A stretch of 45,232 nucleotides of DNA, taken from positions 1-45,232 of the forward strand of contig NZ_JACHES010000016.1 in NCBI RefSeq assembly GCF_014201585.1, in the 5' to 3' direction. Shown one piece after another: positions 4,810 through 7,439 of the stretch. The first letter of the stretch is position 1, and the number at the start of each line of letters is the position of its first letter. The DNA is from Anoxybacillus tengchongensis (GTDB lineage: Bacteria > Bacillota > Bacilli > Bacillales > Anoxybacillaceae). The notes beneath the pieces are model-generated. The model was not told the DNA's origin. It saw only the letters and a program-made list of their open reading frames with translations, and made no database searches. Made by a program: the position numbers and the translations under genes.

Positions 4810-4845
4810 AAAAACAAGGTATGCTTACACGCATACCTTGTTTTT
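4810..4845 (+). terminator. Intrinsic terminator after clpC
   Basis: AAAAACAAGGTATGC (4810-4824) pairs perfectly with GCATACCTTGTTTTT (4831-4845) around a 6-base loop. The A-tract and T-tract flanks make it potentially active from either side. It starts two bases after the clpC stop and separates the heat-shock operon from radA. Confidence 0.93.
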
Positions 4846-4866: not shown

Positions 4867-6261
4867 ATGGTTAAACGGAAAACGAAATTCGTTTGTCAAC
4901 ATTGTGGATATGAAACGGCGAAGTGGATGGGAAAATGCCCAGGGTGCCACTCGTGGAATACAATGGTTGAAGAAACGGAGATTGTGAAACCACATAGCCG
5001 AGCACTATTTGTGCATACAGAGGGGATAGTAGCTAAACCTGTATCGATTACGACAGTAGAAACGACGCAGGAACCGAGAATTGACACGAAGTTTACGGAG
5101 TTTAATCGCGTGTTAGGGGGTGGAATTGTTCGTGGTTCCCTCGTTTTGATCGGTGGCGATCCAGGTATTGGGAAATCGACATTGTTGTTACAAATTTGTG
5201 CTCAGCTCGCAAGCGATACCCACCCTGTATTATATATTTCCGGGGAAGAATCGGTAAAACAAACGAAGTTGCGTGCTGAACGGTTACATGTGGCAGCTGA
5301 ACATTTATATGTTTTATCTGAGACAAATTTAGAACATATTATCCAAACGATAGATGAAATGAAGCCATCGTTCGTTGTCATCGACTCGATTCAAACGATA
5401 TATCGCTCAGAAATTACATCGGCCCCAGGGAGTGTTTCACAAGTTCGTGAATGTACAGCAGAGTTGATGCGAGTAGCTAAAACGAAAGGTATTGCGATTT
5501 TTATTGTTGGGCATGTTACGAAAGAAGGGGCGCTGGCAGGGCCACGCATTTTAGAACATATGGTTGATACTGTATTATATTTTGAGGGAGAGCGTCATCA
5601 TACGTATCGCATTTTACGGGCGGTGAAAAATCGATTTGGTTCCACAAATGAAATCGGTATTTTCGAAATGAAAGAAATAGGGCTTACAGAAGTCAAAAAC
5701 CCATCAGAAATTTTTTTGGAAGAGCGTTCGAAAGGTGCTTCAGGGTCAACGGTGGTCGCTTCTATGGAAGGGACGAGACCTGTGTTAGTGGAAATTCAAG
5801 CATTAGTATCGCCGACTAGTTTCGGAACGCCACGTCGAATGGCAACAGGAATAGATCATAATCGTGTATCTTTACTAATGGCGGTGCTTGAAAAGAGGGT
5901 CGGCCTACTTCTTCAAAACCAGGATGCCTATTTAAAAGTGGCTGGTGGAATTAAGTTAGATGAACCTGCGATTGACTTAGCAATTGTGGTAAGCATTGCA
6001 TCTAGTTTTCGTGATCAACCAACAAATCATACGGATGTTGTGATCGGAGAAGTTGGATTGACAGGTGAAGTACGTCGTGTATCCCGCATTGAACAGCGTG
6101 TGCAAGAAGCTGCGAAGCTCGGTTTTCAACGCATCATTATTCCGAAAAGCAACATCGGTGGCTGGAACATTCCAAAAGGTGTTGAAGTCATTGGAGTAAC
6201 TAATGTAGAAGAAGCGCTATATTACGCATTAGGGGAAGGGAAAAATCGCCCAATATTTTAA
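4867..6261 (+). CDS. radA: RadA/Sms, DNA recombination and repair ATPase
   Basis: RadA is a RecA-related hexameric helicase that drives branch migration in homologous recombination and transformation. The 464-residue protein has an N-terminal zinc finger (Cys10, Cys13, Cys24, Cys27), Walker [11 protein letters not shown] (96-105), the RadA-specific KNRFG motif (254-258) and a C-terminal Lon-protease-like domain ([18 protein letters not shown]). The ATG follows AAAGGAA closely. A terminator ends only 21 bases upstream, so transcription must come from read-through or from a promoter inside clpC. In B. subtilis disA follows directly; here it is absent. Confidence 0.97.
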
Positions 6262-6298
6262 CAAAACCATTAAAAAATGATTAAAAATGATGTTCAGA

Positions 6299-6329
6299 TT
6301 GGTTTCAAACATTGGAAACTGTTTATAAT
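6299..6329 (+). promoter_or_regulatory. Possible sigma-A promoter of yacL-ispD-ispF
   Basis: A perfect TATAAT (6324-6329) lies 21 bases before the yacL start. The only -35 candidate, TTGGTT (6299-6304), leaves a long 19-base spacer, so the call rests mainly on the -10 box. The 51 bases upstream, after radA, are AT-rich with a short TTAAAAA/ATGAT repeat and no sign of a gene. Confidence 0.5.
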
Positions 6330-6350
6330 GTAATAGAGGAGGTGAAAAAC

Positions 6351-7439
6351 GTGTTAAAACGAATTGTGCAAGCATCTTTTTTAATTACTGGGGGAATGTT
6401 AGGAATTATTTTCTTTCCTACTTTGTTAAAACTATTGCACCTAAACGATCTTCCTTATGTCGATAGCCCATATGTAGCCGCCCCAGTTGGTGCGATCATC
6501 GTATTCCTTCTCACGTTTTGGTTAGTTGATCATGTGGTTGGACTGATTCATTGGATGGAAGAAACGTTAGTCAAAGCACCTGTAACAGACTTATTATTCG
6601 GGAGTCTCGGTTTAATTTTCGGATTGATTGTAGCCTTTTTAGTCGTTATTCCATTAAACTCTATTCAAATTCCGCTTGTTAATACGATATTGCCGATTTT
6701 TCTTACGCTATTGTTAGGCTACTTAGGATTTCAAGTCGGATTTAAAAAACGCGATGAACTAATGAACCTATTTTCTTTACCGAATCGAAGTGGAAAGAAA
6801 AAAGGTAGCGAGGAAGAAGAAAAAAAGGGGAAATCGCTAAAAATTTTAGATACGAGTGTCATCATTGACGGTCGTATTGCGGATATTTGTCAAACGGGCT
6901 TTTTGGAAGGGACGATTGTCATTCCGCGGTTTGTTCTTGAAGAATTGCAACATATCGCTGACTCTTCTGATGCTTTAAAGAGAAATCGTGGACGGAGAGG
7001 ACTAGATATTTTAAACCGCATTCAAAAAGAACTAGCAATTAACGTGGAAATATATGAGGGCGATTTTGAAGGAATTCAAGAAGTCGACAGCAAGCTTGTA
7101 AAATTGGCTCAATTGACATCAGGCGTTGTTGTGACAAATGACTTTAATTTAAATAAAGTATGCGAGTTGCAAAATGTTCCCGTACTAAATATTAACGACT
7201 TAGCGAACGCAGTAAAACCGATCGTTCTTCCAGGGGAAGAATTAAATGTTCACGTCATTAAAGACGGAAAAGAACAAAATCAAGGTGTTGCTTATTTAGA
7301 TGATGGGACGATGATCGTTGTAGAGGACGGAAAAGACTACATCGGAAAACGAGTCGATGTGCTTGTGACGAGCGTCTTACAAACTTCGGCTGGAAGAATG
7401 ATTTTTGCTAAATTAAAATTACTTGAAAAAGCATTATGA
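6351..7439 (+). CDS. yacL: YacL, membrane protein with PIN and TRAM domains
   Basis: This is the conserved Firmicutes PIN/TRAM membrane protein, a putative membrane-anchored ribonuclease whose substrate I do not know. Four hydrophobic segments fill roughly residues 1-130 (for example [19 protein letters not shown]). A PIN domain follows, with acidic residues in [21 protein letters not shown] and TNDFNLN that suit a metal-dependent nuclease. A C-terminal TRAM domain ([16 protein letters not shown]) probably binds RNA. GTG at 6351 gives the family start MLKRIVQ, 362 residues, with GAGGAGGTGA just upstream. It abuts radA directly, disA being missing, and is closely followed by ispD. Confidence 0.93.

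Follow-up and report, generated by a model that had tools for sequence, protein, structure and literature searches.

Genes and features around the radA–yacL junction

The window, that is, the whole stretch of 45,232 nucleotides of Anoxybacillus tengchongensis DNA that was analysed, corresponds to contig C16; the genome, 2.73 Mb in size, is a draft of 29 contigs with a stated completeness of 100%. The genes clpC, radA and yacL lie in it in the same order and orientation as in B. subtilis, where the gene order is clpC–radA–disA–yacL. Unlike the B. subtilis region, the window lacks disA, whose product surveys DNA for damage and synthesises the signal molecule c-di-AMP, and has a terminator-like hairpin in the clpC–radA interval. 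The features of the region are listed below.

4810–4845, + strand: terminator-like hairpin in the clpC–radA interval, with a 15-pair stem and then UUUUU within the 3′ arm
4867–6261, + strand: radA (sms), open reading frame with a TIGR00416 match, the intact gene upstream of the missing disA
6262–6350, no strand: radA–yacL junction, 89 bases, 27% G+C, the site of disA in DisA-bearing relatives
6301–6330, + strand: conserved block ahead of yacL that resembles a promoter, with GGTTTC and TATAAT 17 bases apart and a G after TATAAT
6336–6344, + strand: ribosome-binding site of yacL, GAGGAGGTG, 6 bases ahead of the GTG start
6351–7439, + strand: yacL, open reading frame with a GTG start at 6351 and a stop codon ending at 7439

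RadA matches the NCBIfam model TIGR00416 with 717.9 bits, well above the cut-off of 403. The product of yacL, which we take to be a PIN/TRAM protein, is 99% identical to YacL of Anoxybacillus mongoliensis over the best segment, and a YacL search gave a match in all 101 relatives; the yacL frame is also open from an upstream TTG at 6312. The hairpin at 4810–4845 has an energy of −20.5 kcal/mol (z = −9.9), which none of 200 shuffles equalled; it would set radA apart from the clpC operon.

The initial annotation reported disA as missing between radA and yacL, and this is confirmed: the last base of radA is 6261, the start codon of yacL begins at 6351, and the 89 bases between them contain no disA. 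A tblastn search with a DisA protein gave zero matches in L012, the sequence surrounding the junction. A junction without disA was found in 40 of the 41 genomes of the family, all separate assemblies, and in the remaining one (G033) the contig ends short of radA. The Geobacillus group (genus code g3) has a longer junction of 165–332 bases. In genome G028 (L133), the junction extends to 1190 bases through a transposase-like insertion, read by eye, with an open frame of 256 aa.

c-di-AMP cyclases of the genome and the family

A whole-genome search for the DAC domain (PF02457) gave a single match, located on contig C15. The protein is CdaA, scoring 339.7 bits against TIGR00159 (cut-off 188.8) and 38 bits against the DisA model NF010009 (cut-off 201). 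Its gene is preceded by an open reading frame that, judged by eye, presumably encodes an anti-sigma-factor-like protein and is followed by one that we take to be YbbR/cdaR-like. The DisA-linker domain PF10635 has no match in the genome, so that the combination of DAC domain, linker and helix–hairpin–helix that defines DisA is not found; matching positive controls were obtained in B. subtilis for both the DAC and the linker searches. The gene has therefore not been relocated, CdaA is the only cyclase found, and the earlier proposal that c-di-AMP supply would rest on another cyclase such as CdaA is supported as far as gene content goes.

The same picture emerges across the family. PF10635 is absent from all 41 genomes (nine genera), and a DAC frame of CdaA size is present in each of them. 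A second DAC, in frames of 207–232 aa (CdaS size), occurs in 8 of the 41 genomes, and the two that were tested are both CdaS. None of these belongs to the genus of the window, where each of the nine genomes has only one DAC and hence no CdaS. In this genus, c-di-AMP is probably made by CdaA alone. CdaA would then be expected to be essential in the lineage, an expectation based on a passage on B. thuringiensis in PMC4568413. Passages of the same paper report a survey of 78 Bacillus strains, every one of which has one or more cyclase genes.

With one CdaA-type cyclase and no DisA, the genome resembles Listeria monocytogenes and Staphylococcus aureus, which have CdaA (DacA) as their single cyclase. 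Unlike these two species, the lineage of the window is spore-forming, and DisA has been described as a checkpoint protein in spore-formers. In passages of PMC7857571, L. monocytogenes and S. aureus are set against B. subtilis, which has three cyclases.

Content of the 89-base junction

The initial annotation described the junction as 89 AT-rich bases without a remnant ORF. The base composition (27% G+C, compared with 42% for the window) and the lack of disA stand, but the bases are not empty, since they hold the promoter-like block and the ribosome-binding site of yacL. Checked against a sigma-A promoter, the block has the sigma-A-like hexamer TATAAT, but at a distance of 17 bases upstream it has GGTTTC, which is not a sigma-A −35 hexamer (the consensus is TTGACA-like); the block is a putative promoter.

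The pattern of GTTT, 14 bases and TGTTTATAATG is present in 42 of 43 family loci, the exception (L135) being one base off in GTTT. The 43 loci represent 40 genomes, with L042, L045 and L059 apparently the same as G007, G029 and G018. Dinucleotide shuffles used as a control for the pattern gave a mean of at most 0.01 matches and a maximum of 1. Among named loci outside the family, a relaxed form of the pattern matches 36 of 55 with DisA and 8 of 22 without it, leaving 19 and 14 loci, respectively, unmatched; Bacillus sp. ISL-51 (L080) and B. swezeyi (L095) differ from the window in having no match to the pattern. The promoter-like block is kept widely across the order, with the distance between GGTTTC and TATAAT fixed at 17 bases.

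In the family, the deletion appears to have removed disA and spared the predicted promoter region of yacL. The sparing of the block is no rule for other losses of disA, because 14 of the 22 named loci without DisA outside the family lack the pattern.

Distribution and age of the absence

The linker domain was found in 50 of the 101 relatives and, according to lists compared by eye, adjoins yacL in all 50. In a wider sample of 397 genomes of the order, DisA is present in 281 and absent from 116. In a comparison of 80 named loci, the junction holds disA in 55 and lacks it in 25; whole-genome searches in 23 of the latter gave a CdaA-size DAC in each and a DisA-size DAC in none, with an additional CdaS-size DAC in three (the genomes of L093, L106 and L107). 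Both DisA-bearing controls, L047 and L053, have one DisA-size DAC each, in a frame of 358–364 aa. In genome G072 (L188, 2069–3087), the match to disA is split into two parts that lie in different frames, which points either to a decaying gene and possibly an ongoing loss, or to a sequencing error.

A FastTree phylogeny of RadA and YacL was built from 130 of the 157 loci that have both genes (69 rows with DisA and 61 without it). The rows left out were L053, 8 DisA-bearing loci that came from the linker search, 6 loci with short matches and 12 family loci that were near-duplicates. The tree requires 13 changes of state, of which 9 are forced by well-supported branches; it is built on two linked genes, and the count is independent of the root and cannot separate loss from gain. 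The 30 family rows form one well-supported clade in which every row lacks DisA. A 16S sequence was found in 37 of the 101 genomes.

The loss of disA predates Anoxybacillus, because all 41 family genomes, from nine genera, lack DisA and have CdaA. The absence had been regarded as a mark of this lineage, a view that is not borne out: DisA is found in none of the 41 family genomes, and its absence recurs in the order (116 of 397 genomes). What is seen is not a new mechanism but the loss of a gene, old, clean and recurrent. DisA is not a general requirement in the order, being absent from every family genome examined and from several lineages around the family.

In passages of PMC11594194 on Geobacillus icigianus, ctsR, mcsA, mcsB, clpC and radA have locus numbers close to one another, and disA is not mentioned. 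No published report of this absence of DisA was found in the parts of the literature searched, which lay mostly outside subscription journals; one may be in print.

Explanation of the loss

The most probable explanation, with a probability of roughly 0.87, is that disA was cleanly deleted between radA and yacL in an ancestor of the family, before its genera (Anoxybacillus, Geobacillus and relatives) diverged, and that the promoter region of yacL survived the deletion. In the genus of the window, c-di-AMP would come from CdaA alone. The checkpoint function of DisA and its role at stalled forks, both known from B. subtilis, may be unnecessary in the lineage or taken over by other proteins, for example RadA, RecA and Sda. 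The loss was presumably neutral or mildly favoured, since disA has been lost on several occasions in the order.

The draft state of the genome leaves some room for an assembly error in the window, yet the same short junction is repeated in the separate assemblies of the genus and the family, including the single-contig genomes G003, G008 and G009. This repetition in practice excludes such an error at positions 6262–6350, which is the least credible of the explanations and is rejected. Hardly more credible is a disA gene that has moved, or diverged past recognition, elsewhere in the genome: in a genome stated to be complete, the whole-genome DAC and linker searches give CdaA only, the linker is likewise absent from all 41 family genomes, and the B. 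subtilis controls were positive. This candidate, too, is rejected, CdaA being the sole DAC protein and PF10635 being absent. It is also very improbable that the family never had disA and that the DisA-bearing relatives gained it. The direction-neutral count of changes on the tree would fit a gain as well as a loss, but loss is favoured because disA occupies a single shared site in the DisA-bearing relatives (the radA–yacL junction in 50 of 50), and gains that recur at exactly one position are far less probable than recurring deletions. DisA was also matched in the controls Thermotoga maritima and Corynebacterium glutamicum, which argues against a gain within the relatives.

A different question is whether the deletion of disA in the family ancestor was an adaptation, with selection against DisA by high temperature or osmotic stress. 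Most members of the family are thermophiles, and disA is also missing from another thermophile, Bacillus coagulans. Against a heat-driven loss, disA has also been lost in Oceanobacillus, Virgibacillus and Gracilibacillus, which are halophile or mesophile genera, and has been kept in Heyndrickxia sporothermodurans. Selection by heat is favoured by passages of PMC11673879, which describe three loss-of-function disA mutations in lines of B. cereus after evolution at a critical high temperature. On balance, an adaptive origin of the loss is possible but doubtful.

DarA, the riboswitch and other parts of the c-di-AMP system

The c-di-AMP receptor DarA (PF06153) has no match in the 29 different family genomes searched, that of the window among them (two overlapping sets of 25 and 17 genomes were used); in the order sample, it is present in 350 of 397 genomes. 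The lineage differs in this respect from Listeria, which has DarA (PstA). In three genomes, tmk is followed directly by holB (G008, L165 260–1919; G009, L168 17607–19353; G037, L171 17581–19297), whereas in G050, darA and a yaaR-like gene, both missing from the other three, lie between them. The names tmk, holB and yaaR-like at these junctions, unlike that of darA, are our presumptive assignments.

A general co-loss of DisA and DarA is rejected outside the family. Among 380 such genomes, DisA is absent from 7 of 30 without DarA and from 92 of 350 with it (Fisher odds ratio 0.85, p = 0.83), in a table compiled by eye where genomes without a match were mostly inferred from their absence in match lists. 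The family coded f22 has kept DisA and lost DarA, all 15 of its listed DisA-bearing genomes being without DarA; this is the opposite of the other, DisA-less families.

The c-di-AMP riboswitch RF00379 (ydaO/yuaA leader) was not detected in any of the nine genomes of the genus of the window (G000–G008, its own included) with strict filters that may miss weak matches; with the same filters, 15 of 16 genomes from the rest of the family and 10 of 16 outgroups gave a match. The riboswitch precedes what we take to be a kimA-like gene in four of the five family loci read and in G009, and a presumably kdpA-like gene in the fifth. In G008, the place of the riboswitch and kimA was not found in six stretches at 150–270 kb. 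The same genome encodes a phosphodiesterase (L180) that is presumably GdpP-like, its best NCBIfam match, NF011110, lying below the cut-off.

We tentatively suggest that the family runs a stripped c-di-AMP system, with CdaA, no DNA-scanning cyclase and no DarA, and with no riboswitch detected in Anoxybacillus. Heat or osmotic stress may select against DisA, and the loss of DarA might have made the loss of a cyclase safer; this combined scenario is unlikely to hold as a whole. Passages of PMC7857571 infer that c-di-AMP-free DarA inhibits growth in B. subtilis. As a general rule, an easing of cyclase loss by DarA loss is opposed by the lack of a link between the two losses outside the family. The main value of the observations lies in the wider pattern of loss and in the missing DarA. 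Lineages without DisA are natural knock-outs for asking what DisA, DarA and CdaA each contribute and which genes go along with them.

Sporulation checkpoint and RadA

DisA of B. subtilis has been described as a checkpoint sensor that acts during sporulation and spore outgrowth. The initial annotation had suggested that signalling from DNA damage to sporulation is rewired in this lineage, which the data do not show. Sda (PF08970) is matched in all 101 genomes, that of the window included, and a comparison of alignment columns between tree rows with and without DisA gives no sign of relaxed constraint on RadA after the loss. Of the 234 RadA columns that are at least 97% conserved in the 69 rows with DisA, 6 pass the drift cut-off (in rows without DisA, conservation under 80% in the 31 from outside the family or under 50% in the 30 from within it), and all 6 change to similar residues. 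In genome G036, the only Sda match has an internal stop.
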